The position numbers were made by a program, and so were the translations under genes. This document shows, one piece after another, positions 1,698 through 16,626 of a stretch of DNA of 53,631 bases (positions within the stretch are counted from its first letter, which is position 1; every line of letters begins with the position of its first letter). Below the pieces are notes generated by a model, which ran no database searches, was not told where the DNA came from, and saw only the letters and a program-made list of their open reading frames with translations. Location of the stretch: NCBI GenBank assembly GCA_016933215.1, contig JAFGBH010000043.1:1-53631 (forward strand), in the 5' to 3' direction. The stretch comes from Deltaproteobacteria bacterium (lineage in GTDB: Bacteria > Desulfobacterota > Syntrophia > Syntrophales > UBA2210).

Positions 1698-3047
1698 CTA
1701 CACGATTCCCTGTGCCATCATCGCCTTCGCAACCTTCACAAATCCGGCAATGTTCGCTCCGTTCACGTAATTGCCGGGAGTACCATACTCATCAGCCGCG
1801 CCTATACAGGCACTGTGAATACTCTTCATGATTCTCTTGAGATAATCATCCACTTCCTCACGGGTCCAGCTCAGACGGAGGCTGTTCTGCGTCATCTCAA
1901 GACCCGATACGGATACACCACCTGCATTTGACGCCTTGCCCGGTGCATACAATATCTTGTTTTCAAGGAAGATATTGACACCTTCGGGAACGGTCGGCAT
2001 GTTCGCGCCTTCGCTGACGACATTGACACCATTGGCGACGAGATTGGCCGCATCTTTTGCGTTAATCTCGTTCTGTGTCGCACAGGGGAAGGCACAGTCG
2101 GCCTTGTGATTCCAGAGAGGATTATAACCAAGGGCAGGATCAATCGCCGTATAAACCGCCTCGGGATACTTTTCAGCATATTCCTTGATACGTCCGCGCT
2201 CTACATTCTTAAGGTACATGACATAATCAAGTTTTTCACGGCTGATACCCGACTCATCGTAGATGTATCCCGAAGAATCGGAAAGGGTCAGCACTTTGCC
2301 TCCCAGCTCCAGCACCTTCTCGGCAGCATACTGCGCCACGTTCCCGGAACCGGAGATAAGGCAGGTCTTGCCTTCCAGCGCTTCATCTTTCGTTGCCAGC
2401 ATCTCGGAAGCAAAGTAAATGGTACCATAGCCGGTCGCCTCGGGACGAATCAGGCTTCCGCCCCACTCGAGACCCTTTCCCGTCAGAACGCCGGTAAATT
2501 CATTCCGGAGTTTTTTATACATTCCGAAGAGATATCCGATCTCCCTCGCGCCTACGCCGATGTCACCGGCGGGCACATCCGTATTCGGGCCGAGATGCCT
2601 GAATATCTCAGACATAAAACTGTGGCAGAAACGCATCACCTCATTGTCCGATTTTCCCTTGGGATCGAAGTTGGAACCGCCCTTACCGCCACCCATAGGA
2701 AGCGTCGTCAGGGCATTCTTATACACCTGCTCAAATCCCAGAAACTTCAATATGCTCAGGTTGACAGAGGGATGAAAACGGAAACCGCCCTTGTAGGGAC
2801 CGATGGCGCTGTTCATCTCGATGCGATACCCTCTATTGATCTGGACCTCACCTCTGTCATTAACCCAGGGAATCCGAAACAGTATGGTTCGTTCAGGCTC
2901 TACCATTCGCTCCAATACCTTTGCTGTACGATACTCAGGATGCTTATCAAGAACAGGCTTTACCGACTCTGCAACCTCGGCCACGGCCTGGAGAAACTCA
3001 ACCTCACCAGGATTGCACTCTTCACACATCTTAATAAATTCTTTCAT
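1698..3047 (-). CDS. gdhA: Glutamate dehydrogenase
   Basis: Hexameric glutamate dehydrogenase, 449 residues (E. coli GdhA has 447), interconverting glutamate with 2-oxoglutarate and ammonia. Visible signatures: RGYRIEMNSAIGPYKGGFRFHPSV (substrate-binding Lys), the catalytic-Lys segment TLPMGGGKGGSNFDPKGKS, DVPAGDIGVG, the nucleotide-binding SGSGNVAQYA and the C-terminal PGKASNAGGVSVSGLEM. The ATG at 3045-3047 is chosen because GGAG lies just upstream; an in-frame ATG 18 bases earlier has no ribosome-binding site. It follows the liv genes on the same strand after a long hairpin. In this setting it can oxidise the glutamate made by GabT and supply 2-oxoglutarate, or assimilate ammonia. Family resemblance suggests NADP use; this is not proven. 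Confidence 0.95.
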   Translation of the reverse strand: MKEFIKMCEECNPGEVEFLQAVAEVAESVKPVLDKHPEYRTAKVLERMVEPERTILFRIPWVNDRGEVQINRGYRIEMNSAIGPYKGGFRFHPSVNLSILKFLGFEQVYKNALTTLPMGGGKGGSNFDPKGKSDNEVMRFCHSFMSEIFRHLGPNTDVPAGDIGVGAREIGYLFGMYKKLRNEFTGVLTGKGLEWGGSLIRPEATGYGTIYFASEMLATKDEALEGKTCLISGSGNVAQYAAEKVLELGGKVLTLSDSSGYIYDESGISREKLDYVMYLKNVERGRIKEYAEKYPEAVYTAIDPALGYNPLWNHKADCAFPCATQNEINAKDAANLVANGVNVVSEGANMPTVPEGVNIFLENKILYAPGKASNAGGVSVSGLEMTQNSLRLSWTREEVDDYLKRIMKSIHSACIGAADEYGTPGNYVNGANIAGFVKVAKAMMAQGIV

Positions 3048-3246
3048 CTTTCCTTCTCCTATCATTGGACGTTTAATTTCTTGATCTCTTTATCTTTTTC
3101 GAATTGATCAGTTTGGTTTTTACAGCAAACTCTCCCTATCAAGCCTTGAAAAGAGACGAGCGACAATTGCAACGTTGTCTTTTCCGTCCCTCATCAAGTC
3201 AGCATAAAATAATGCAATTTTCTCTAGGGAGAACAATATGACCGTA

Positions 3247-3308: not shown

Positions 3309-4019
3309 TTATATCCCGAGATATGCCTCACGAATATTCGCGTTTTCCAAAAGTTCCTTACCGGTCCCTTCCTGAACTATCCTTCCATGCTCGAGCACAT
3401 ATCCACGATCACTCATGCTGAGAGAATGCTGTACATCCTGCTCGACCATCAGTACCGTCAAACCCTTGTCGGCTATCTTTTTGACGGTCTGGAATATTTC
3501 CTGAATGAGAACAGGGGCAAGACCAAGGGACGGCTCATCGAGCATCAGGATTTTGGGATTGGCCATCAGTCCTCTCCCTACCGCAACCATCTGCTGCTCA
3601 CCGCCACTCATGGTAATGGCAAGCTGTTTTTCACGTTCCTTTAGTCGAGGGAGGAGTTTATATACCTCCTCAAAACCCTCGGCCATACGGGAATATGCCC
3701 TCGGATTGTGAGCTCCCACTTCCAGGTTTTCTTTGGACGTCATCAGGGTAAATAATTTCCTACCCTCTGGAACCTGCACAACCCCCCTATTAACAATCTT
3801 TTCGGGACGAAGGTTGTGTATCGGTTCACCGTCGAAGATAATCTCCCCCGATGTTGCCTTCACAAGACCGGATATGCATTTCAGGACAGTTGATTTACCG
3901 GCCCCGTTGGCTCCGATTATGCTGATAATTTCGCCTTCTTCTACATGCATGGAGACATCATAGACAACTTGAACGTCTCCGTAAAAGCAATCTATGTTTT
4001 TAATTTCCAGTAGCGACAT
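3309..4019 (-). CDS. livF: Branched-chain/amino-acid ABC transporter ATPase LivF
   Basis: Second ATPase of a HAAT-type (LIV-like) amino-acid importer, about 236 residues. Walker A is GANGAGKST, the signature is TMSGGEQQMVAVGRGLM, Walker B is ILMLDEPSLGL, and the switch His is in the D/H region after VLMVEQDVQ. The absence of the longer insert seen in LivG and the EHGRIVQEGTGKEL tail identify LivF. The start is taken at 4017-4019 because AGGAG stands at proper distance; an ATG 6 bases upstream abuts that site. It overlaps livG by 20 bases, so translation is probably coupled. It acts on the cytoplasmic face of the LivH/LivM channel. Substrate is not determined by this subunit. Confidence 0.93.
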   Translation of the reverse strand: MSLLEIKNIDCFYGDVQVVYDVSMHVEEGEIISIIGANGAGKSTVLKCISGLVKATSGEIIFDGEPIHNLRPEKIVNRGVVQVPEGRKLFTLMTSKENLEVGAHNPRAYSRMAEGFEEVYKLLPRLKEREKQLAITMSGGEQQMVAVGRGLMANPKILMLDEPSLGLAPVLIQEIFQTVKKIADKGLTVLMVEQDVQHSLSMSDRGYVLEHGRIVQEGTGKELLENANIREAYLGI

Positions 4020-4731
4020 AACCATCTCCTAAGTATGCTTTTATTACTCGCTCATCTGTGGACACCTCTTGAGGTGTCCCCTCTACGATCTTTTCTCCAA
4101 AGTGGATGACTGCAATGCGATCCGAAAGTGCCATAATCGCCCGCATAATATGCTCAATAACGAATATGGTAACGCCACTGTCCCTGATACCGCGAATAAC
4201 GTCGAGAATCTCATCGACTTCATTGGGTCTCAGCCCCGCCATACATTCATCCAGAAGAAGCATTTCAGGGTTGGTCGCCATTGCACGTGCAAGTTCAAGG
4301 CGCTTTCTGTCCGCAATGGTAAGGTTTTTGGCCAAGAGGTCTTTCTTGTCTGCAAGGTGCATCTTTTCAAGAACGTCGAGGGCCATATCCCTGACCTCTG
4401 CTGGATTGGTAGATCGTATATAGGAGCCTACCATCGTATTATAGAGTACCGTCTTCATCTTGAAGGGTTTGACCAGCTGAAATGTCCTGGCAATCCTCCT
4501 TTTGCAGATATCCCACGGTTTCATTGCCGTAATATCATCGCCTTTAAAAAAGACCTGCCCGTATGTGGGGGGGTAAACGCCGGCAACACAGTTAAAAAGT
4601 GTTGACTTGCCGGCACCGTTTGGCCCGATAAGGCCGAATATCTGTCCTTCCTCAATCGACAGATCTACCTGATCAACAGCCTTCAAACCACCAAAGTGTT
4701 TCGATACGTTTTTTATTTCAAGTTTTGCCAT
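4000..4731 (-). CDS. livG: Branched-chain/amino-acid ABC transporter ATPase LivG
   Basis: First ATPase of the LIV-like importer, 243 residues. Walker A GPNGAGKSTLFN, the LivG-specific IARTFQLVKPF segment, Walker B EMLLLDECMAGLRP and switch region FVIEHIMRAIM are all present. The signature region reads LTIADRKRLELARAM, in which the usual LSxGxQ is replaced by LTIADRK. The same divergence is common in LivG proteins of this type, since family members often read LTLxxRKRLELARAL. The start ATG overlaps the livM stop as TAATG, and its own end overlaps livF by 20 bases, so livM-livG-livF is one tightly coupled block. It powers import together with LivF. Confidence 0.93.
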   Translation of the reverse strand: MAKLEIKNVSKHFGGLKAVDQVDLSIEEGQIFGLIGPNGAGKSTLFNCVAGVYPPTYGQVFFKGDDITAMKPWDICKRRIARTFQLVKPFKMKTVLYNTMVGSYIRSTNPAEVRDMALDVLEKMHLADKKDLLAKNLTIADRKRLELARAMATNPEMLLLDECMAGLRPNEVDEILDVIRGIRDSGVTIFVIEHIMRAIMALSDRIAVIHFGEKIVEGTPQEVSTDERVIKAYLGDGYVATGN

Positions 4732-5744
4732 TACGACTTTACCCCCTTCTTCTCTATATTTCCGGTCGCCTTATCGAGGATCCAGTTGTAGAATTTATTC
4801 AACGGTTCCTGGATTCCCCGGGGCTGATAGATCATGACGAGTATCAGAACGAGACCATAGATAACCAGATGAAGGCCGGGCAAAAAACTGCTGAAGTAAA
4901 TACGCGAAAAATCACTAACCGGCCTCAGAATCAGTGCCCCAAGCACCGGACCTGCCAGTGTTCCACGTCCTCCGATCAGCGCAATAAAGGCGATTTCAAA
5001 GGAAAAATCAAGCCCCAGGATCGCCTTGGGATAGAAATAGAGCGCGAGCTGCGCATAGAACGTTCCCGCCAGACCTGTCATAAAACAGCTTATGGCCATG
5101 GCGATAACCTTATATTTTGCAACATTGACACCGAGTGCCTCCGCTGCTTCCGGTTCCTCACCGCCGGCATTAAGATAATATCCAATTCGTATACGTGACA
5201 TGTACCACGTCACAAAAAGCGCAGTACACAGCATAATAAGGATAATATAGTAATAGGGAACCTTGCTCATAAACTGAAAGTTCCAAAACGATTCACTGAG
5301 CGGAATACATATCCCGCGCGGCCCGTTCAAAACGAACGGCCCCAGTTTATCAGTGTTCTCGACAAACACCCTCACACCTTCACCAAATGCCATGGTCGCA
5401 AGTGCAAAGTATGCTCCTCTTAGTTTCAATGTCGGGATACCGATAATAGTTCCAACGATGGCAGCGAGAACTCCGCCGGCAAGCATCCCGATCCAGGGGC
5501 TCAGGCCATAATGCATAAACAGAATTGTTGAGGTATAAGCTCCGATTCCAACATACGCTGAATGTCCCAGCGGCAGGACGCCGGCCCATCCACCGACCAG
5601 ATTCCATGAAGTGGTAAGATATGCGTAGAAAAAGAGCAATATCAAAATCTGGAGGTACGTCGGACTGCTCATCCAGATCGGCAGGGTAAAGACACCGACT
5701 ATCAGAACAATCTTGAGTATTTTGTCCAATGTTTCTTTTGTCAT
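4731..5744 (-). CDS. livM: Branched-chain/amino-acid ABC transporter permease LivM
   Basis: Inner-membrane permease of the LIV-like system, 337 residues, with about eight to ten hydrophobic helices. The segment SWNLVGGWAGVLPLGHSAYVG is the usual LivM N-terminal signature. The cytoplasmic EAA-like loop that contacts the ATPases reads EEPEAAEALGVNVAKYKV, and FEIAFIALIGGRGTLAGPVLGALIL follows in the C-terminal half. The stop overlaps the livG start. It pairs with LivH 18 bases upstream. Length and topology are normal for the family. Confidence 0.93.
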   Translation of the reverse strand: MTKETLDKILKIVLIVGVFTLPIWMSSPTYLQILILLFFYAYLTTSWNLVGGWAGVLPLGHSAYVGIGAYTSTILFMHYGLSPWIGMLAGGVLAAIVGTIIGIPTLKLRGAYFALATMAFGEGVRVFVENTDKLGPFVLNGPRGICIPLSESFWNFQFMSKVPYYYIILIMLCTALFVTWYMSRIRIGYYLNAGGEEPEAAEALGVNVAKYKVIAMAISCFMTGLAGTFYAQLALYFYPKAILGLDFSFEIAFIALIGGRGTLAGPVLGALILRPVSDFSRIYFSSFLPGLHLVIYGLVLILVMIYQPRGIQEPLNKFYNWILDKATGNIEKKGVKS

Positions 5745-5762
5745 CTTCGTTTGTCTCCTTTC

Positions 5763-6647
5763 CTACCAGTCTCTCTTTTCTCCGAATAGTCCTGCCGGTT
5801 TGACAAAGAGTACCGCCAGAAATACCAGATAGACTATCAGCTCAGTCCATGTTGACGTCATAAACTGGGCTCCTATGGATTCAATGAGACCGATGATTAC
5901 ACCTCCTAACAGGGCACCGGGTATGCTTCCCAGTCCTCCCAGAACCACGATGATAAAGCACTTCACGTCAAAAATGACTCCCACCGTGGGAAATACATAA
6001 TAGAAGGGAATAAGAACGCATCCCACCACGCCCATAATGGCCGTTCCGATACCGAAGGCTATATTATAGACCCGGTACTGATTGATGCCCATGAGGCTTG
6101 CCGCTTCACGATCAAGACTTGCTGCCCGTATCGCCTTGCCCATCTTGGTATACTTGAGAAACCACACAAGGGCCACGGAAACGATTACCGTTGCGATTAA
6201 ACCGTAAAGCTTGGGAGTGGAGACAATGATTTCACCAATTTCAAATGCCTTTCCTGTGATAGACGTCTGAACAACCCTGTATTCCGCCCCGAATATCATC
6301 AGGGTTATATTATCAAGGATGTACCATACACCCGACGTTACAATAATAACTTCCGTTGGTTCCCTAACATCACTCTGCGCCTCCAGAACGGGCTTTATGA
6401 CGATATCCTGTAGAAAATACCCGAAGAAAAAGAGCAGGGGTACGACGACGATAAGTGCAAGGTAAGGATTCACACCGGTCAACATGACTACCCAGTATGC
6501 GGCATACATACCGACCATCAGGCAGGAACCGTGAGCGAAGTTGATCACCTTTATGACACCAAATATCAGGGTAAGTCCCAACGCAGCAAGACCGTAAATC
6601 GAGCCCATTAATGTCCCGCTAACGATTGCTTGAATTATAAAATCCAT
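5763..6647 (-). CDS. livH: Branched-chain/amino-acid ABC transporter permease LivH
   Basis: Inner-membrane permease of the LIV-like importer, 294 residues from the ATG at 6645-6647, which follows a GAGGT ribosome-binding site. A longer reading frame extends 18 codons upstream but has no such site and reaches into the livK-livH hairpin. The N-terminus SGTLMGSIYGLAALGLTLIFGVIKVINFAHG is the classic LivH start. The ATPase-contact loop reads AIRAASLDREAASLMGI and the C-terminal half has VVLGGLGSIPGALLGG. It forms the translocation path with LivM. Confidence 0.93.
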   Translation of the reverse strand: MDFIIQAIVSGTLMGSIYGLAALGLTLIFGVIKVINFAHGSCLMVGMYAAYWVVMLTGVNPYLALIVVVPLLFFFGYFLQDIVIKPVLEAQSDVREPTEVIIVTSGVWYILDNITLMIFGAEYRVVQTSITGKAFEIGEIIVSTPKLYGLIATVIVSVALVWFLKYTKMGKAIRAASLDREAASLMGINQYRVYNIAFGIGTAIMGVVGCVLIPFYYVFPTVGVIFDVKCFIIVVLGGLGSIPGALLGGVIIGLIESIGAQFMTSTWTELIVYLVFLAVLFVKPAGLFGEKRDW

Positions 6648-6672
6648 TTTTACCTCGTTTTCTCTATTTGCT

Positions 6673-6716
6673 GATGCGGGAGGGAAGCAGGATGTGCACA
6701 CCCCCCTTCCCGCATC
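6673..6716 (-). other. Intercistronic hairpin between livK and livH
   Basis: GATGCGGG at 6673-6680 pairs with CCCGCATC at 6709-6716, and the stem extends inward through GA/GGG-rich bases. It lies in the 103-base gap after the binding-protein gene. Hairpins here commonly protect the upstream binding-protein mRNA, giving more LivK than permease; that role is inferred. Confidence 0.6.
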
Positions 6717-6750
6717 TGATACTTTAACGGATTATTGTCTGTAACCCTTG

Positions 6751-8013
6751 TTATTTCTCTGGCATGGGAAAGACTGCTTCGAAACCCGCTCTCGCAGCAC
6801 TTTCAGGCCATACGGAAACTCTCTCCAGATTACCATCAACCATGCGGTACTGAACCATGACGAGCCCTGCGTTGATGTTCTGACCCGACTCGTCAAATTC
6901 GATTGCATCGTAGGAAACGATCATCGCCGGTCCGCTGTCGAGGTGCATACTTGCCAGCGCTTCCCTGAGTTTCTGGGCATCTGTTGAGGCTGCTCTCTCG
7001 AGGGCATCGGCAATTACGTATACGGAAGCATAGGCGTCAACAGATTCACCGGCCAGGTCAAAGCCGTGACGTTTCTTAAATTCCGCATTCAGCTCCGGAA
7101 TGCCGGGTTTGCTTAGATCGGCTTCCCACTCGACGACGTCGAACATGTATTCGGCGTTTGCCCCGCAATTTTTACGGAACATCGGATCGGCGTGACCGCC
7201 ACCCGTTCCGATAATCGCCTTGGCCTTGACTTTCATCTCCGCCATGGTGTTGGTGAGGAGAATTGCGTCCGACGCATTCGAGGTCAACAAAATGACGTCC
7301 GGTTTTGCCCTCTTGATCTTCATCACGACAGGCGTCAGGTCACTGGCGGTACTCGGATAGGGTTCATTGAGCACAACATCGTAACCATATTTCTCTGCCA
7401 GCTTTTCCCACTGTTCCGCCATACCCACACCCCAGTCACCATTCTCATAGACAAAGGCCATGGTCTTCAGATCCGCCCCGGATTTCTTCTTCATATCCTC
7501 GAGAAATTCAAACTGGTCACGGGTCCACCAGGCATCCTTCGCGGCAATCCTGAAGGTGTATTTGAATCCTCTTTCAGTAATGGTGTTACGGACAGACACG
7601 GGAACGATAAAGGGAACTCTGTATCTCTCGGCAACCTGTGTCGACGGATAGGTAACCGCCGAGTTCCAGCATCCCGAAAGGATATGCACCTTATTGGTGT
7701 TGATAAGGCGTTCCGCTGCGGTAACACCTACCGTGGGGTCGCTCTTGCTGTCGACGTAAATATTCTCGAGCTTTGCACCGCCCAGTGATTTGATGCCGCC
7801 GGCATTGTTAATCTGCTCGGTAGCCAATTCACGGGCATATTTGCCCTGGATGCCGACCGACGCAGACGGTCCCGAAAGTGGCAGGATGTTGCCGATCTTT
7901 ACCACCTTGTCCTTCGCCACTGCCGACGTACCGGCAGATAAAACCATGGCAAAGGCAAAGGTAAGCGCTACAACACACACAAAACCTGTTCGCCAAAAAC
8001 TTCCTCTCTTCAT
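6751..8013 (-). CDS. livK: Periplasmic amino-acid-binding protein of the LIV-like transporter
   Basis: Type I periplasmic binding protein of the HAAT family, 420 residues. The signal peptide has the basic start MKRGSFWRTG, a hydrophobic core and a likely cut after TSAVA near residue 33. The mature protein starts KDKVVKIGNILPLSGPSASVGIQGKYARELA, a typical Peripla_BP_6 N-terminus with the ligand-contacting SGPSAS turn. It begins after a strong AAGGAG site. It captures the substrate outside the inner membrane and delivers it to LivHM. Its position between the transporter genes and gabT, inside a GABA pathway operon, suggests GABA or a related amino acid as ligand. HAAT systems that carry GABA are known (the rhizobial Bra system), but the ligand cannot be read from sequence. 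Confidence 0.92.
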   Translation of the reverse strand: MKRGSFWRTGFVCVVALTFAFAMVLSAGTSAVAKDKVVKIGNILPLSGPSASVGIQGKYARELATEQINNAGGIKSLGGAKLENIYVDSKSDPTVGVTAAERLINTNKVHILSGCWNSAVTYPSTQVAERYRVPFIVPVSVRNTITERGFKYTFRIAAKDAWWTRDQFEFLEDMKKKSGADLKTMAFVYENGDWGVGMAEQWEKLAEKYGYDVVLNEPYPSTASDLTPVVMKIKRAKPDVILLTSNASDAILLTNTMAEMKVKAKAIIGTGGGHADPMFRKNCGANAEYMFDVVEWEADLSKPGIPELNAEFKKRHGFDLAGESVDAYASVYVIADALERAASTDAQKLREALASMHLDSGPAMIVSYDAIEFDESGQNINAGLVMVQYRMVDGNLERVSVWPESAARAGFEAVFPMPEK

Positions 8014-8231: not shown

Positions 8232-9530
8232 CTATCCCTTGAGAGACGCGAAGGCGTCATCCATTATCGCGAGTCCCCTGTCAAGCTGTTCGTCGGTGAT
8301 CACCAGCGGCATGAGGCAGCGAATCACGTTGCCGAAGGGACCACAGGAGAGAAGAATCATCCCATGCTCATAGGCGAATTTCACAATCGCCCCGGCCGAC
8401 TCACTATCCGGTTCCTTCGTGACACGATCCTTGACCAGTTCCATGCCAATCATGGGACCCTTTCCGCGCACATCGCCGATTACCTCATATTTCTTCTGCA
8501 TCTCTTCAAAGGCCGCCCACAGTTTCTTACCGAGGGCCTCGCTCTTCTCAAGCATGTTCTCCTCTTCGAATATATCCAGGACCGCATTTGCCGCAGCGCA
8601 GGCAACTGCATTACCACCATAGGTTCCGCCGATTCCACCCGGATGAACCGAATCCATGATCTCCTCTCTGCCGACAACGGCACTCAAGGGCATACCGGCG
8701 GCAAGGCTCTTCGCCGTGGTTATCATGTCAGGCACGACTCCCCAGTGCTCGATTGCAAAGAGTTTATTGCCAGTCCTTCCCATACCGGCCTGGATCTCGT
8801 CGGAGACAAAGAGTATCTCGTTATCCTTACAGATCTTGGCAAGTTTCGGGAAATATTCCGGCGGCGGTGTAATAAAACCACCCTCACCGAGAACGGGTTC
8901 CGCAATCAGGGCCGCCGTTGTCTCCGGAGGGGTCTCTATGAACTTTTCCTTCAGATAATCGGCACAGGCGATATTACATTTCGGGTACTCGAGACCGAAG
9001 GGGCACCGATAGCAGTAAGCACAGGGCATACGATAAATCTCCGAAGCAAAGGGACCAAACCCTAATTTGTACGGTTTGACCTTGCTTGTCATTGTCATGG
9101 TCAGGAGCGTTCTGCCGTGAAAGGCATGCTGAAAGACGATGATTCCGGTCTTTTTGGTATAGTATCGCGATATCTTGACGGCGTTCTCAACGGCCTCGGC
9201 CCCGGCATTGACAAAAAATGCCTTCTTTGCAAAATTACCGGGGGTAAGGGCACAGAGCCTTTCCGCCAGCTTCACGGCCGGTTCATAGGGTACCACCATA
9301 AAACAGGTGTGGGTAAACTTCTCTGCCTGCTCCTTAATAGCAGCCACCACTTTGGGGTGGGAATGACCTACATTCATCACGCCGATACCACCGGCAAAAT
9401 CTATATATTCCCTTCCATCGACATCGGTGAGCATCGCTCCCTTACCCGATTCGATGAAGGATGGCTTGCCACCGGCAAAGGATTTCGCCAGAAACTGTGA
9501 TCGAAGTTCGCTCAATGATTCATTACTCAT
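8232..9530 (-). CDS. gabT: 4-aminobutyrate aminotransferase (class III, PLP)
   Basis: Class III PLP aminotransferase, 432 residues, transferring the GABA amino group to 2-oxoglutarate to give succinate semialdehyde and glutamate. Visible: FAGGIGVMNVGHSHPKV, the NAGAEAVENAVK phosphate-binding turn, FHGRT, the PLP-ring Asp in FVSDEIQAGMGRTG and the Schiff-base Lys274 in TTAKSLAAGMPLSAV. A Cys-rich insert at 170-189 (five Cys: 170, 173, 176, 185, 189) occurs in some GabT-like enzymes of anaerobes. The start has a GAGGAGG site 8 bases upstream. Acetylornithine or other omega-amino acid aminotransferases are alternatives, but the neighbouring 4-hydroxybutyrate genes strongly favour GABA. Confidence 0.9.
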   Translation of the reverse strand: MSNESLSELRSQFLAKSFAGGKPSFIESGKGAMLTDVDGREYIDFAGGIGVMNVGHSHPKVVAAIKEQAEKFTHTCFMVVPYEPAVKLAERLCALTPGNFAKKAFFVNAGAEAVENAVKISRYYTKKTGIIVFQHAFHGRTLLTMTMTSKVKPYKLGFGPFASEIYRMPCAYCYRCPFGLEYPKCNIACADYLKEKFIETPPETTAALIAEPVLGEGGFITPPPEYFPKLAKICKDNEILFVSDEIQAGMGRTGNKLFAIEHWGVVPDMITTAKSLAAGMPLSAVVGREEIMDSVHPGGIGGTYGGNAVACAAANAVLDIFEEENMLEKSEALGKKLWAAFEEMQKKYEVIGDVRGKGPMIGMELVKDRVTKEPDSESAGAIVKFAYEHGMILLSCGPFGNVIRCLMPLVITDEQLDRGLAIMDDAFASLKG

Positions 9531-9625: not shown

Positions 9626-10777
9626 TTACAGCGCCGCCGTGTAAATGGCCTTTGCGTCTTCATAGTTCAGCGTTCTCGGGTTATTCGCCAGGAGTCTCGT
9701 TACCTTCATCACTCCCTCGGCGAGCATCGGAACATCTTTCTCCTTGACACCGAAATCGGCCAAGTGCCTCGGCACCCTGATATCGTCGGCCAGACGATCA
9801 ATCGCCGCTATAACACGATCGACTATCTGCAAATCATCAAGGCCCTCTGTCGGGATACCGAAGGGTTTGGCAAGGGCCGCAAACTTCGGAAGATTCCCGA
9901 GCACATTGTAGCGGATCACGTGGGGGAGCATCAGTGTATTTGCCACACCATGCGGTATGTGGAACTCGGCACCGATTGGATAGGCAAAAGCATGAACCGC
10001 CGTCACACCAGCATTGGCAAAACCGATGCCTGCCAGAAGTGCACCTTCCATCATGGCGCTGCGCGCCTCGATATTATCCCCCTTGGCATAGGCGATACGC
10101 AGATTGTTATAGATAAGCTTTATGGCCCTGATATTGAACATATCGGTAAGACCCGTCGCGTTTATGGAGGTATAGGCCTCGACCGCGTGGATGAGAGCGT
10201 CCATTCCGGTTGCCGCCGTTACATGAGGCGGAAGGCCGATCGTCATCTCCGCATCCAGGATACCCATAGAGGGATACATATGAGGACTGACCACACCCTT
10301 TTTCAGCTTTTCACCTTCGTCGGAAAGAATGGCGATGGGTGTGACTTCACTTCCCGTGCCGGCCGTTGTGGGCACCATAATGGTGGGCAAACCCGGGTTT
10401 GGTATCAGGTCGATCCCGAAATACTCAGAAATGGGGCCTTCGTTCGTCATCATAATCGCCGTTGTTTTCGTTATATCGATGGGGCTCCCGCCACCCAGAC
10501 CGATAAGGAGTTCCGCTTTCTCTTTCTCAACCATGGCAACACAGTCCGCCACAATTTCATAGCGCGGATCCGGTTCAACTCCGTCAAATATGGCAAACGC
10601 AATTCCCGCCTCTGTAAGAGAGGTTTCAACCGGTCCGGTTAGACCTGCACCGATGACACCCTTATCGGTGACGATCAGGACCTTGGCAATTCCTCTTTTT
10701 TTGACCTCACCACCTATTGTTTTGATAGCTCCGGGACCCATAATGATCTTGGGCGTGGTACTGAAAACTTGTGCCAT
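9626..10777 (-). CDS. Iron-type alcohol dehydrogenase, probable 4-hydroxybutyrate dehydrogenase
   Basis: Group III (Fe-ADH) NAD(P)-dependent dehydrogenase, 383 residues. The coenzyme-binding GLGGGSPIDITKTTAI, the family motif TAGTGSEVTPIAI and the metal-site region GVTAVHAFAYPIGAEFHIPHGVAN (Fe-ligand His residues) are present. In context it would reduce succinate semialdehyde from GabT to 4-hydroxybutyrate, the substrate of the adjacent CoA-transferase. Fe-ADHs in the GABA and succinate fermenters Clostridium kluyveri and C. aminobutyricum do this. It starts after a GGAGGAG site. The fold alone could equally fit another short-chain alcohol or lactaldehyde dehydrogenase; the assignment rests on context. 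Confidence 0.82.
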   Translation of the reverse strand: MAQVFSTTPKIIMGPGAIKTIGGEVKKRGIAKVLIVTDKGVIGAGLTGPVETSLTEAGIAFAIFDGVEPDPRYEIVADCVAMVEKEKAELLIGLGGGSPIDITKTTAIMMTNEGPISEYFGIDLIPNPGLPTIMVPTTAGTGSEVTPIAILSDEGEKLKKGVVSPHMYPSMGILDAEMTIGLPPHVTAATGMDALIHAVEAYTSINATGLTDMFNIRAIKLIYNNLRIAYAKGDNIEARSAMMEGALLAGIGFANAGVTAVHAFAYPIGAEFHIPHGVANTLMLPHVIRYNVLGNLPKFAALAKPFGIPTEGLDDLQIVDRVIAAIDRLADDIRVPRHLADFGVKEKDVPMLAEGVMKVTRLLANNPRTLNYEDAKAIYTAAL

Positions 10778-10935: not shown

Positions 10936-12231
10936 CTATTGGTTATATATCCTTGCAAAATCCTTTTTCAGGTCTGCCCTGAAATCGGGATGTGCGATAT
11001 TTATCAATTCCTTTGCGCGCTGCGGTACCGATTTTCCCCGCAGATCGGCGATTCCGTATTCGGTCACCACGAAGTGAATATCCGTGCGTGTCGTCGTTAC
11101 AATCGCACCTTCGTCAAGACAGGGAACGATTCTGGAGAGTGTCCCCTTTGCCGCTGTTGAGTGGAAGGCAAGGATCGAACGTCCTCCCTTCGACCAGGCT
11201 GCACCTCGGATAAAGTCGGCCTGGCCGCCTGTACCGCTGAACTGTTTATGACCGATTGACTCGGAACAGGCCTGACCCGTCAGGTCGATCTGCAGCGTGG
11301 AATTAACCGAAACCATCTTGTCGTTTCTGGCGATAATGGCCGGGTTGTTCGTGTAATCGACGGTGAACATCTCCACGATCGGATTATTATGGACGAAGCG
11401 GTACAACTTCTCCGTGCCCATAAAGAAGGTGGCAACCATCTTGTTGGTATGAAAGTTTTTCCGCCCGCAGGTGATCACACCTTCGTTCACCAGATCGACC
11501 ACCCCGTCGGAAAACATCTCCGTGTGGATACCCAGATCCTTCTTGTCTTTGAGAAAACCGAGAATCGAATCGGGAACAGCACCAATCCCGAGCTGCAGGC
11601 AGGCACCGTCTTCTATCAGTTCGGCAGAGTATCCGCCTATCTTCTCGTCAGTTTCCGAAATCTTAGGGGGATTCAGAACGATCGGTTTCGAATCGCACTC
11701 GATAATATGATCGATCTTGGAAACATGGATGAAGGCGTCTCCCAGAGTCCTCGGCATGTGCGGTGTCACCTCGGCGATAACGATCTTTGAACTCTCCGCC
11801 GCCGGTTTTGTATAGTCCACCGATATGCCGAATGAACAGTACCCATGTTCGTCCGGCGTGGACACCATACAGAGGGTTACGTCAACGGGAAGAATCTTCT
11901 CCGTAAACAGGCGCGGAATCTGGCTGAAATGGCTTGCCGTAAAACACGCCCTCCCCTCATGAATGGCCTTTCTGCTTGTGCCACCGGCAAAGAGAGAATT
12001 GTGGACAAAATGGGCTGAGTTTTCGGGAAGACAATACTCTGAGGGTCCCATTGCAACCATATGAACTATTTCAACATTTTCATAGGCATCTTTATTTTCA
12101 ACCATAGCCTTCAGGACAACCTCAGGTGATCCAGAGGCATGCCCCACGACAACCCTGTCTCCTGATTTTATATGCGTAACTGCTTTTTGTGCGGTAGTTA
12201 GTCTCTCTTTATATAGTTCTTCCCATTGCAT
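10936..12231 (-). CDS. abfT: 4-hydroxybutyrate CoA-transferase
   Basis: Family I CoA-transferase of the acetyl-CoA hydrolase/Cat2 type, 431 residues. It exchanges CoA from acetyl-CoA (or butyryl-CoA) to 4-hydroxybutyrate in the cytoplasm. The catalytic glutamate falls at residue 238 in GIHTEMFSDGVVDL, the same number as the active-site Glu238 known in Clostridium aminobutyricum AbfT. Other family marks are GIGAVPDSILGFL, QIDLTGQACSES, FSGTGGQADFIRGA and VTEYGIADLRGKS. The start lies 7 bases past the stop of the small CGGC gene, with the GGAGG ribosome site overlapping that gene's last codons. Acetyl-CoA hydrolase or butyrate CoA-transferase are alternatives; the dehydratase next door supports 4-hydroxybutyrate. 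Confidence 0.92.
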   Translation of the reverse strand: MQWEELYKERLTTAQKAVTHIKSGDRVVVGHASGSPEVVLKAMVENKDAYENVEIVHMVAMGPSEYCLPENSAHFVHNSLFAGGTSRKAIHEGRACFTASHFSQIPRLFTEKILPVDVTLCMVSTPDEHGYCSFGISVDYTKPAAESSKIVIAEVTPHMPRTLGDAFIHVSKIDHIIECDSKPIVLNPPKISETDEKIGGYSAELIEDGACLQLGIGAVPDSILGFLKDKKDLGIHTEMFSDGVVDLVNEGVITCGRKNFHTNKMVATFFMGTEKLYRFVHNNPIVEMFTVDYTNNPAIIARNDKMVSVNSTLQIDLTGQACSESIGHKQFSGTGGQADFIRGAAWSKGGRSILAFHSTAAKGTLSRIVPCLDEGAIVTTTRTDIHFVVTEYGIADLRGKSVPQRAKELINIAHPDFRADLKKDFARIYNQ

Positions 12232-12238
12232 CTAATTA

Positions 12239-12505
12239 CTAACCTCCTTGTCTCTTTTTTACTTCATCGATAAAGGTCTCGGCCTCTTCTCTGCTCTTTA
12301 TGAAACGTATGGGACGGTTACCAAAGGGTTCAATATCGACACAGGCGGTTTTGCATCCAGTCACTACCAACACCATGTCAACATCTTCGCCGTCGGGAGA
12401 CACGAATTCAATCGTGTCCCCCACACGTCTTTTGATCTCTTCAACAGTTTTCACCCGATCATACTGGGCCCTGCAGCCGCCACAGTATTTCAGCCCTACC
12501 TTCAG
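12239..12505 (-). CDS. Small CGGC-motif protein of unknown function, probable CTG start
   Basis: I do not recognise a named family. A GTG start at 12452-12454 would give 71 residues. The open frame continues upstream with conserved-looking sequence KVGLKYCGGCRAQYDRVKTVEE, giving 88 residues if translation begins at a CTG at 12503-12505. That CTG overlaps the abfD stop TGA as CTGA, the same geometry as an ATGA coupled start, and GGGAG lies 10 bases upstream. No ATG, GTG or TTG exists between the last in-frame stop and the CGGC motif. Cys residues: two in CGGC, then VTGCKTACVD, four in all, suggesting a metal or redox site. It is flanked by abfD and abfT, so it probably serves the 4-hydroxybutyrate pathway. 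Confidence 0.75.
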   Translation of the reverse strand: MKVGLKYCGGCRAQYDRVKTVEEIKRRVGDTIEFVSPDGEDVDMVLVVTGCKTACVDIEPFGNRPIRFIKSREEAETFIDEVKKRQGG

Positions 12506-13971
12506 CTGAGGTGATCTCCCTTCTCGATCCCGCAGAGTTCTTTCGCGATCTGCTTCTTCTCATTCATGTTAATCAAACGGGTAATCATGATCCGCTGGGC
12601 CTGGGGAGAACCGGCACCATGCATGGATTCCGTCAGATACCCGACTGCCGCCGTACCGAGCGTGATGTTTTCGATCAGCCTCAAGATACGCATACGATAC
12701 TCGGTCGGAATGTCTTCCTTCGTCTTATAGTATTTCTCCAGCCACTTGCCTATCTCGGGAGATTTGAAATCGGCCTCTGAAGGGAGTGTCACCATCAGGC
12801 CGCCGGCGATATCCTGGGCCAGTCTGGCAATCTGATAGGGAAAGCGGGTTACATTGTGCTTGTGAATGTTGGCAAGCAGGACATCAACAAGATAGGTCCC
12901 GCATGGTTCTTTGTGACCCTCGGAGGCACAGGCGATACATCCGCAATAGAGCGTCTCATTAAGATGATTCATCTCAACGATTTTATCCTTTACATGCGAT
13001 GCCCTCTCGGCTCCGTTGTACTCGGCAATTGTCTGGGATGCACCGATCAGAACGTCTCCCACACCAACTTTACAGGCATAACTCTGTCGATGATAGGCCG
13101 CGAAATTTTCCACGAGCTGAGTCGAAAACTCGTATTCCTTGTACATGAAAATACGCTCCCAGGGGACAAAGACATGATCAAAGACACAAAGTGCCTCGTG
13201 ACCACCGTAGTGCATGTTTCCCCTGTCAATAGTCATCCCTTCGCTCTTCCTGGTATCGCAGGACTGACGCCCTATTATGTAGGTGATGCCTTCCGTGTCA
13301 CTCGGCAGTGCAAAGGATATTGCGTAATCCTTATCCTCTTCCCTCATCGTTATGGTGGGCATTATGATAATCTCATGGGAATTGACGGCACCTGTCTGAT
13401 GGGCCTTGGAACCGCATACCACGATGCCATCGGGTTTCTCCTCCACAACGTGCATGAACATGTCGGGATCGGGCTGTTTGTGCGGTGGAAGGGACCTGTC
13501 ACCCTTGGTATCTGTCATGGCGCCGTCACAAGTAAGATCGTTCTCCTGAACATATTCGAGATATTTGAGAAAACGTTTGTTGTATTCGGTCCCGTGTTTG
13601 GCATCGATATCGAAGGTGGTAATGGAAAGGGCATTCAATGCATCCATTCCCACACATCTCTGGAAACAGCAGCCCGTTTTGGCTCCCAAAAGCCGACCCA
13701 TCTTGCTCTTTTTCAGCAAATCATCCCTGCTCTGGTGAATATTGCAGAAACGGTTGACCTTTTTCCCGGTGATGTGGGAGGTTGCCGTCATCAGGTCTTC
13801 ATATTCAGGTCTATGGGCGAGTTCATACGTTGCCGCAACGGCATTCATCGAGGGACGAATGATCGGATCGTCGACGGGGTTTTCCACCTTCTTTCCGAAC
13901 ATGTACACCTGTAAATTAAGCTTCCTTAAGCTTTCCTCATATTCCTTTGCATTCATTAATTTACTCATCAT
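12502..13971 (-). CDS. abfD: 4-hydroxybutyryl-CoA dehydratase / vinylacetyl-CoA isomerase
   Basis: FAD and [4Fe-4S] enzyme of the 4-hydroxyphenylacetate hydroxylase fold, 489 residues. It dehydrates 4-hydroxybutyryl-CoA to crotonyl-CoA through a radical mechanism and is oxygen-sensitive. The cluster ligands are recognisable: Cys102 and Cys106 in CCFQRCVGMD and His294 and Cys300 in YHRQSYACKVG, matching Cys99, Cys103, His292 and Cys299 of C. aminobutyricum. The His-Cys spacing is six here rather than seven. Other marks: AMTDTKGDRS, GSKAHQTGAVNSHE, TRFPYQIARLAQDIAGG, ESMHGAGSPQAQR. AAAGGAG precedes two adjacent ATGs (13971 or 13968). It is the first gene after the sigma-54 promoter. A paralogous HpaB-family member acting on a related CoA ester is the alternative. 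Confidence 0.92.
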   Translation of the reverse strand: MMSKLMNAKEYEESLRKLNLQVYMFGKKVENPVDDPIIRPSMNAVAATYELAHRPEYEDLMTATSHITGKKVNRFCNIHQSRDDLLKKSKMGRLLGAKTGCCFQRCVGMDALNALSITTFDIDAKHGTEYNKRFLKYLEYVQENDLTCDGAMTDTKGDRSLPPHKQPDPDMFMHVVEEKPDGIVVCGSKAHQTGAVNSHEIIIMPTITMREEDKDYAISFALPSDTEGITYIIGRQSCDTRKSEGMTIDRGNMHYGGHEALCVFDHVFVPWERIFMYKEYEFSTQLVENFAAYHRQSYACKVGVGDVLIGASQTIAEYNGAERASHVKDKIVEMNHLNETLYCGCIACASEGHKEPCGTYLVDVLLANIHKHNVTRFPYQIARLAQDIAGGLMVTLPSEADFKSPEIGKWLEKYYKTKEDIPTEYRMRILRLIENITLGTAAVGYLTESMHGAGSPQAQRIMITRLINMNEKKQIAKELCGIEKGDHLS

Positions 13972-14060
13972 GAATCTCCTTTAAAAAATAGTTCACGTTG
14001 TGCGTTTATTACAATCCGGGCCATGCTGCGCGCCGGCACATATTGACAAACGCCCGTTAA

Positions 14061-14078
14061 CCAGCAACTTCCATGCCA
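14061..14078 (-). promoter_or_regulatory. Sigma-54 (-24/-12) promoter of the GABA operon
   Basis: Read on the minus strand: TGGCAT, five bases, TTGCTG. GG and GC are separated by exactly ten bases, as in the TGGCAC-N5-TTGCW consensus. It is about 90 bases upstream of abfD and faces it. A sigma-54 activator gene is the next gene upstream. Expected transcript start is near 14050. Confidence 0.85.
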
Positions 14079-14186
14079 GACACATTTCGAGTCCCTTGTA
14101 ATATGAAAGGCACTTCAATAACAGGGCGTTACATAATATTATTGCCCGTAAGGTACAAGACAGGGACTCAAATTGTCCCCACCGAA

Positions 14187-14204
14187 TGATGCATATCTGC
14201 ATCA
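14187..14204. promoter_or_regulatory. Palindrome, probable activator site 1
   Basis: Perfect 7+4+7 inverted repeat TGATGCA-TATC-TGCATCA. It is about 110 bases upstream of the -24 element, a typical distance for an enhancer-binding protein site. Its arms are identical to those of the palindrome at 14367-14384, exactly 180 bp away. Confidence 0.8.
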
Positions 14205-14267
14205 ATCGCAATACCGAATATTTTTATGCTACTGAATTATATATCAGATAATGAATTTTACACAAAA

Positions 14268-14285
14268 AAATGCGATCATGCATCA
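14268..14285. promoter_or_regulatory. Degenerate palindrome, possible weak activator site
   Basis: The right arm TGCATCA at 14279-14285 is perfect; the left arm AAATGCG keeps only the central ATGC. It lies between the two perfect sites. Confidence 0.4.
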
Positions 14286-14366
14286 CCCACATAATCTACC
14301 ACACCATAAGCAATACAACTTTCTGATTTTATTGATATTAAAGCATAAAACAGGGGTCGCTGGCTC

Positions 14367-14384
14367 TGATGCATTATTGCATCA
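14367..14384. promoter_or_regulatory. Palindrome, probable activator site 2
   Basis: Perfect inverted repeat TGATGCA-TTAT-TGCATCA, the same arms as at 14187-14204 with a different 4-base spacer. A further weak match (ATATGCC-ATAA-TGCATTA) is at 14445-14462. Confidence 0.8.
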
Positions 14385-14617
14385 GCTGCTTGGAGGGGGG
14401 CTGAGACAGTCGGCGGTTCTCATTTTGCGTCATATTGGCACACCATATGCCATAATGCATTACAAGGCTTATACTTTGATATTACTGCTATTGTCAATTT
14501 CTCATTCATACGGATGTGCCAGTTAGGCATAGATGAAGTTACGATCACCGAAGCGTGTTCCCCGTGAGATCGCGACGACCGGAGGCTGGTTTCGATTGTA
14601 CGGGTTCACTCTTCAGT

Positions 14618-16378
14618 TCACAATCTTCCGTTCATTTTCTTGAGCTTACGGGTAATGGTTGATGAATCGACACCCAGATAGGGCGAGGCCTTGCGGGCGC
14701 TTCCATGTCGCTTTACCGCACTCTGAATGAGCGACAACTCCACTTTTTCAAGATGCTCTTTCAGAGTCAAACCCGAATTAACCGACTCATACCGTGACCC
14801 GTCACAGAGTTCAAGGGGAAGGTGGTGAGGAAATACAACGTTGTCGGGCGTGACAACAATCAGCCGCTCGATTACATTCGATACCTCCCTGACATTTCCC
14901 GGCCACGAATATTGCAGGAGCATACTGAGCGCCTCTCTGCTCAGTATCCTGTCCGTTCCATGTTTTTGATTAAACTGATTGACAAAGAGATTAATGAGAT
15001 AGGGAATGTCATCGCGCCTCTCGCGGAGAGGAGGAATATAAATGGGAACCACATTCAGGCGGTAGTAAAGGTCGGCACGAAATTCCTTCTTTTCGATTAA
15101 GATCTTGAGATCCTGATTTGACGCACAGATGAGACGAACGTCGACCTTTTTAGGGACCGTTCCTCCCACACGGGTTATTTCAAAATTCTGCAGGACCCTG
15201 AGCAGCTTGGATTGCAATACCAGACTCATCGACTCGACTTCATCGAGAAAGAGGGTACCCCCGTTTGCAACTTCAAAGAGTCCCGTCTTCCCTTCCTTGC
15301 TCGCTCCCGTAAAGGCCCCCTTTTCATATCCAAAAAGTTCACTTTCCAGCAAGGTCTCAGGAATTGCCCCGCAATTAATCTTCACGAAAATCCCACTTTC
15401 CGAGCGATTCGACTGATCGTGTATCTCTTCGGCAATCCTGTCCTTCCCGACCCCCGTTTCTCCATATAACAGTACCGTTGCATCGGTTTTACTGACCCGT
15501 TCAACAAGATCATAAATCCGCAACATAGACTCGGATACCATAATGAGATCGCTCCCTCTCGTGGCGGACCGCTGGAGTTCCTGCAACTTCTCTTTATACG
15601 CCGATGTGAGCCCCAGCGAGGTCTCAAGACGCCGGTTCAGCTCGACCAGGTCTGTCATATCGCGTACATTGGTAACGATCATCTTGATAGTGCCCATCTC
15701 ATCATAGATCGGGTTACCGGTGACAAGAATCTCCTTTCCCGATTTCAGATTCTGTCGTATCGTAACGCTATCTCTGGTTTCCAGGACCTTAAGCGACACG
15801 CTCTCACTGTAAAACCCCTCCCTGACAAGATCCCTCATATTGCGCCCCATTACCTGCGAGGCCTGGATTCCGGTAATTTTTTCATAGGCAGAATTCACCC
15901 AGATGGTATTGGCATCCCCATCGGTCACATATATTCCGTCATAGGAAGATTCTATAATTGCCTTAATCTCCTCTGCGTATTCCCGCACTTCAAAAAGGTC
16001 CTTTGAGAGCTTCTCATATGCCTTCATTTCCTGGAACACGCCCATCACGCCCACCAATTTGTCATTACACATAATCGGCGTTCTCTGGGCTACCAGCGTG
16101 CGGCCACCATAGGTTGCAGGGACATTCAGCTGCGGCTTTCCCGTTTCTATAATCTTCTTATAACCGAGCCAGATATCATAAGCCATGTCGGCCATTTTGA
16201 TCGTATGTGGCACCACCTCGTCATGATAATCAAGAAGCTCCTTTGCCGCCTCGTTGGCAAATATAATGTACCCCTTTTTGTCGACTGCTATGATGCCGAA
16301 GTAGGTGGAATTGATTACCGCCTCACACATATCTTCGGCAGTCAGTTCCATCTCGGAATCATGATATTTTTTTATCAT
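14618..16378 (-). CDS. Sigma-54-dependent activator with two PAS domains
   Basis: Bacterial enhancer-binding protein, 586 residues. It contains PAS domain 1 (about 17-120), PAS domain 2 (about 138-245), a short coiled linker (245-272), an AAA+ ATPase (about 278-515) and a Fis-type helix-turn-helix (about 545-582). Walker A is GETGVGKD at 306-313, the sigma-54 contact loop GAFTGA is at 354-359, Walker B is GGTLFLDE, and the sensor/arginine region is FRADLYYRLNV. There is no receiver domain, so the signal is probably sensed by the PAS domains or a bound metabolite. The next genes downstream start from a -24/-12 promoter with twin palindromes, so this protein very likely activates the GABA operon. 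A GGAAGGA site precedes the ATG. Confidence 0.92.
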   Translation of the reverse strand: MIKKYHDSEMELTAEDMCEAVINSTYFGIIAVDKKGYIIFANEAAKELLDYHDEVVPHTIKMADMAYDIWLGYKKIIETGKPQLNVPATYGGRTLVAQRTPIMCNDKLVGVMGVFQEMKAYEKLSKDLFEVREYAEEIKAIIESSYDGIYVTDGDANTIWVNSAYEKITGIQASQVMGRNMRDLVREGFYSESVSLKVLETRDSVTIRQNLKSGKEILVTGNPIYDEMGTIKMIVTNVRDMTDLVELNRRLETSLGLTSAYKEKLQELQRSATRGSDLIMVSESMLRIYDLVERVSKTDATVLLYGETGVGKDRIAEEIHDQSNRSESGIFVKINCGAIPETLLESELFGYEKGAFTGASKEGKTGLFEVANGGTLFLDEVESMSLVLQSKLLRVLQNFEITRVGGTVPKKVDVRLICASNQDLKILIEKKEFRADLYYRLNVVPIYIPPLRERRDDIPYLINLFVNQFNQKHGTDRILSREALSMLLQYSWPGNVREVSNVIERLIVVTPDNVVFPHHLPLELCDGSRYESVNSGLTLKEHLEKVELSLIQSAVKRHGSARKASPYLGVDSSTITRKLKKMNGRL

Positions 16379-16626
16379 CTTCTACCATCCTTCCATTCTC
16401 TCGATTATTCTACGGACGCCACCTTATTAGATCATAGAGCGGCAGTCAATTAGAAAGTATCCACCAATACTTACAGAACGCGACAGCTGCTCTCTTAACT
16501 GAAACGCAACAAATATGCCACATTTCATGGAGTGATTGTATAAAGATATTTGACGAAGAAATACTTTTTGGATATAGTTCATCTCCTTCCACCGATATCA
16601 CGCACACTGTTAACAGGAGGCAGAAG

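Follow-up and report, generated by a model that had tools for sequence, protein, structure and literature searches.

The window analyzed here is a stretch of 53,631 nucleotides from a 2.69-Mb genome of a Deltaproteobacteria bacterium. The region of interest within it lies between two minus-strand genes, that of a PAS-type sigma-54 activator (EBP, 14618–16378) and abfD (12502–13971), and contains a full-consensus sigma-54 promoter and three dyads that are candidate enhancer sites. The promoter, TGGCATGGAAGTTGCTG, is on the minus strand at 14062–14078, with GG at −24 and GC at −12 (14065–14064). It agrees exactly, at 14078–14062, with the TGGCAT-N5-TTGCTG element that a first-pass annotation had placed before abfD, and with its GG-N10-GC spacing it is the sole exact match within the window. 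The dyads, which are assigned no strand, are the proximal S3 (TGATGCATATCTGCATCA, 14187–14204), the middle S2 (TGATGCATGATCGCATTT in minus-strand letters, 14268–14285), which is degenerate here, and the distal S1 (TGATGCATTATTGCATCA, 14367–14384). From the usual promoter spacing, the abfD transcript would be expected to start near 14052.

The abfD product was identified as 4-hydroxybutyryl-CoA dehydratase from its Pfam domains (HpaB_N/HpaB) and its best PDB match, 1u8v. Within the HpaB superfamily it was nearest to that enzyme, with an E value of 4e-206 versus 1e-42 or weaker for hydroxylases; the second-best match was vinylacetyl-CoA isomerase 6vjr (3e-190). The genes after abfD, all on the minus strand, encode a 4-hydroxybutyrate CoA-transferase (abfT-like, 10936–12231; PDB 3eh7, E value 6e-158, also 3gk7), an iron-containing alcohol dehydrogenase (9626–10777, Pfam Fe-ADH) that from its context is probably a 4-hydroxybutyrate dehydrogenase, and a class III aminotransferase (8232–9530, Pfam Aminotran_3), probably a GABA transaminase, whose position is kept in relatives. 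They are followed by five genes for a branched-chain-amino-acid-type ABC transporter (LivKHMGF-like, 3309–8013), possibly for GABA uptake, and by a gene of the glutamate dehydrogenase family (ELFV, 1698–3065); the transporter genes have the same order, and the dehydrogenase gene the same place, in genome G003. The whole order from EBP through abfD, CoA-transferase, Fe-ADH, aminotransferase, and LivKHMGF to GDH is complete in G003 and partial, within the DNA covered, in G005 and G355. A gap of 270 bases (12232–12501) separates abfD from the CoA-transferase gene, and gaps of similar size are found there in G005, G003, and G355. GABA is fermented via succinate semialdehyde and 4-hydroxybutyrate, and then the CoA ester of the latter, to crotonyl-CoA. 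With predicted uptake, transaminase, dehydrogenase, CoA-transferase, and AbfD, the gene set fits GABA/4-hydroxybutyrate fermentation, and the metabolic setting proposed earlier is thus matched by the gene content of the operon.

The EBP gene encodes 586 amino acids, as judged from the Pfam matches and the translation. Its product has PAS domains at about 16–117 and at 137–241, an AAA+ sigma-54 interaction domain at 279–446 (PF00158, 7e-67) in which the GAFTGA motif could be seen in the translation, and a C-terminal helix-turn-helix at 538–581 (PF18024, HTH_50; 36.8 bits against a 27-bit cut-off). It is therefore the sigma-54 activator with PAS domains that had been reported just upstream. The AAA+ domain resembles the structures of FleQ, NtrC, and PspF, and the first PAS domain the cytoplasmic PAS domains of DcuS and CitA. 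The nearest NCBIfam family, PrdR (NF041552), was rejected as an identity for the protein; the score was 418 bits against a 795-bit cut-off, and the target of PrdR differs as well. The minus strand also has a near-consensus sigma-54 element, TGGCATATTTGTTGCGT, at 16504–16520, 142 bases before the EBP start. G005 has a similar one at another position, and none that strong was found in five other relatives; because the element lacks a conserved place, autoregulation of the EBP gene is not supported.

S1 and S3 are both exact 18-mers of the form TGATGCA-N4-TGCATCA, 180 bp apart from start to start, as first reported; their distances to the promoter, given then as about 110 and 290 bases, were measured as 109 and 289. 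A search of the whole genome gave no exact dyad besides S1 and S3; with 14 fixed bases, about 0.01 occurrences would be expected. In the phylum, 394 other genomes lacked the pair pattern (ATGCA-N4-TGCAT twice, with a gap of 155–175). A genome-wide search for other members of the regulon gave four single degenerate dyads, a number near chance, with the sigma-54 consensus absent from the 3-kb locus around each. The region also contains a direct repeat, CACACCATAAGCAATA and CACACCATATGCCATA, at 14300–14315 and 14439–14454, 139 bp apart.

Some of the EBP orthologs (58–72% identity) come from the same family and order, others from a second class. In all 13 genomes that have an ortholog and readable DNA, three dyads and then a sigma-54-type promoter precede abfD, giving 39 sites in two classes (the window plus G005, G003, G145, G012, G010, G355, G543, G540, G544, G542, G436, and G282; G221 stands outside the count, as its promoter falls in a gap of Ns). 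These genomes are not independent samples, and G355 and G543 are closely related. The sites share the consensus YRATGCA-N4-TGCATYR, and 39/39 have its inner GC and GC; those of G436 drift somewhat from it (TTGCA arms). For each genome, none of 300 dinucleotide shuffles gave an equally good triplet, even under wide spacing limits. The spacing ranges of the first test were picked after the first arrays had been seen, and a search with wider ranges recovered the same triplets. A possible IHF site in the S3–promoter interval was rejected as part of the array, being present in only two of the 13 genomes.

The place of S1 is kept in the 12 further genomes. In 12 of the 13, S1 and S2 are 87–100 bp apart (mean 95.2, SD 3.6), S2 and S3 are 78–81 bp apart (mean 79.6, SD 1.1), and S3 is 124–127 bp from the −24 element (mean 125.5, SD 1.0). 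The exception is G282, which has three dyads at spacings of 102, 103, and 113 bp and a poor −12 element. The S2–S3 spacers of the three closest genomes are equal in length and have just 20–25 of 63 bases identical, compared with 11–13 of 14 in S1 and S3, and abfD starts anywhere from 56 to about 190 bases from the −24 element. Because the spacers are fixed in length while drifted in sequence, and the promoter-to-abfD distance varies, the lengths within the array look selected. The conserved unit is accordingly a triplet, with its S2–S3 and S3–promoter distances, and not the pair 180 bp apart that had been put forward. The idea that this pair spans close to 17 helical turns and places two dimers on the same DNA face also failed: the S1–S3 distances were 166, 171, 173, 173, 173, 174, 174, 176, 177, 179, 180, and 181 bp, and 205 bp in G282, and since they cover all helical phases, helical phasing is not a conserved feature.

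Two degenerate matches, at 14268 and 14445, had been suggested as weaker sites. The match at 14268 is S2, 99 bp from S1 and 81 bp from S3; relatives have a site at the same position, from which we conclude that it is a true third site. The match at 14445 had no counterpart in the relatives, is probably due to chance, and was rejected as a regulator site. S2 of the window has three mismatches, and its imperfect right arm (CGCATTT) would suit a reading in which S1 and S3 alone work and S2 has decayed to a relic here. We consider this unlikely, because the position and left arm of S2 are conserved, S2 is the best of the three sites in G145 and G282, and weak sites commonly accompany strong ones in sigma-54 enhancers.

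The array follows the EBP ortholog. It was present at 13/13 abfD promoters in genomes with the ortholog and at 0/30 in genomes without it, the controls being abfD genes with upstream DNA in genomes whose best EBP matches, if any, were 40–42% identical; AbfD itself is common in these taxa, mostly without this EBP. Fisher's test gives about 3e-11 for this comparison, a value that ignores kinship among the genomes and was scaled by hand from 1.4e-11 (13/13 versus 0/32), because two of 32 genomes had no upstream DNA. The partial EBP of G542 (67% identity), on the same contig as abfD, was found by a search with looser limits. More than 2 kb separates the EBP gene from abfD in G355 and G543, with an oppositely oriented symporter-like reading frame in between in G355, and about 25 kb separates them in G436; in all three the array is at the abfD promoter. 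The DNA-binding helix is conserved among the EBP orthologs of array-bearing genomes. The earlier proposal of TGATGCA-N4-TGCATCA as a candidate binding motif for the EBP has thus passed a conservation check.

Dimeric repressors, too, typically have perfect dyads of this length as their sites, and binding by the EBP is itself a prediction; the sites could therefore belong to another regulator, either a repressor or a global factor. The joint occurrence of array and ortholog makes this improbable, as does the locking of dyad spacing to the sigma-54 promoter. The same is argued by more distant EBPs (39–50% identity) with other targets, which have variant dyads near their own genes, with the same TGC-N6-GCA heart and in some cases the form GTTGCA-N4-TGCAAC. 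Judged from the sites themselves, this pattern fits an activator family in which the outer bases of the site change with the regulator. It is less probable still that the dyads act as RNA hairpins in the EBP transcript, where they would cause termination or mRNA processing. Both perfect dyads would fold as RNA (−13.8 and −12.3 kcal/mol), but a T-run terminator was not found at the dyads, the conservation extends to letters and not to pairing alone, the pairing is broken in S2 of the window, and the array of G436 lies about 25 kb from the EBP gene.

A gene for the sigma-54 DNA-binding domain (PF04552) is present in all 13 array genomes. The −24 half of the abfD promoter is at or near consensus, and the −12 GC, which is nearly invariant in sigma-54 promoters, is kept in four of the 13. 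The other nine (loci L035, L036, L128, L150–L152, L181, L182, and L129) have GT or GA at this position, for example TGGCACCAGTCTTGTA; in most relatives the promoter is thus close to the consensus without matching it fully.

Taken together, these results make it very probable that the region is an EBP-driven enhancer-promoter of a GABA/4-hydroxybutyrate fermentation operon. By analogy with other activators of this type, we infer that EBP dimers would dock at the three copies of YRATGCA-N4-TGCATYR, and that the six subunits of three dimers would make up one AAA+ hexamer, an assembly also proposed for NorR. GABA, succinate semialdehyde, or 4-hydroxybutyrate may be the inducer that lifts inhibition by the PAS domains. 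Through looping of the DNA, the AAA+ ring would then reach sigma-54 polymerase at −24/−12, some 125 bp from S3, and opening of the promoter would lead to expression of abfD and probably also of the genes after it. Sigma-54 enhancers are usually assumed to act through a flexible loop. In two classes, the long spacers hold their lengths of about 80 and 125 bp to within about 1 bp even though their letters have changed. The promoter and the three bound dimers could thus instead be parts of a single rigid nucleoprotein of defined geometry, with DNA wrapped on the hexamer, for instance; we offer this as a tentative and rather doubtful possibility.

The enhancer-promoter reading with three dimers and looping can be compared with several known activators. 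XanR of Clostridium is a sigma-54 EBP with a distinct site motif of its own, and its control of an abfD-led operon has been predicted (Nie et al. 2019, PMC6615313). The predicted control of such an operon is alike; on the basis of operon and phylum, which are the terms of this comparison, XanR differs, its operon being abfD-nifU-hyp-ach-golB in another phylum. GabR of Bacillus thuringiensis is a PAS-AAA+-HTH activator that works together with sigma-54 at a promoter for GABA catabolism (Peng et al. 2014, PMC4279683). Its inducers are GABA and succinic semialdehyde, and its PAS domain is repressive when ligand is absent (PMC4279683). Unlike the EBP, GabR has one PAS domain, serves the GABA shunt (gabT/gabD) and not AbfD fermentation, and protects one 96-bp region close to the promoter, whereas here three dyads are spread out. 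AdhR of Clostridium beijerinckii binds three upstream sites, and the promoter loses much of its activity if any one of them is missing (PMC7017808). The number of sites is the same as here, but AdhR has GAF and PAS domains, an alcohol dehydrogenase target, and a different type of motif, TGT-N10-12-ACA (PMC6615313). NorR of Escherichia coli uses three enhancer sites ahead of a sigma-54 promoter, which are needed for activation and scaffold a ring-shaped hexamer (Bush et al. 2010, PMC2941729). Here the likeness is in the number and the predicted role of the sites, whereas the GAF domain of NorR senses NO, its target is another, and all its sites lie within a 266-bp fragment. When the literature was searched for the motif letters alone, no bacterial enhancer turned up among the matches listed. 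The type of switch is ordinary for bacteria; this regulator and its docking site appear to be undescribed.

The EBP and its dyad would constitute a new regulator-motif pair, and the functional guess of the first-pass annotation largely holds. The analysis provides a concrete site motif and layout for seemingly undescribed activators predicted to act over GABA/4-hydroxybutyrate fermentation in anaerobic bacteria. The 13 arrays of nearly fixed spacing form a natural set for asking whether a single AAA+ hexamer is nucleated by three dimer sites and whether sigma-54 transcription depends on the geometry of the enhancer.

Some further sites were seen near related EBP genes. Loci L046, L049, and L050 have EBPs of 44–46% identity, with GATGC[AC]-N4-TGCATC dyads shortly after their genes. 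Named by a look at their sequence only, the genes that these dyads precede are a CoA-transferase-like and an HpaB-family gene in L046 and an aldehyde ferredoxin oxidoreductase-like gene in L049 and L050. Near the EBP ortholog of G436 there is a second target-like site (L126, 7300–7507), with dyads at 7300 and 7387 and a full-consensus sigma-54 promoter at 7491. It precedes a gene set that looks by sequence like a 5-oxoprolinase of the LamB/YcsF (pxpA) type, which suggests a link to glutamate or lactam metabolism.
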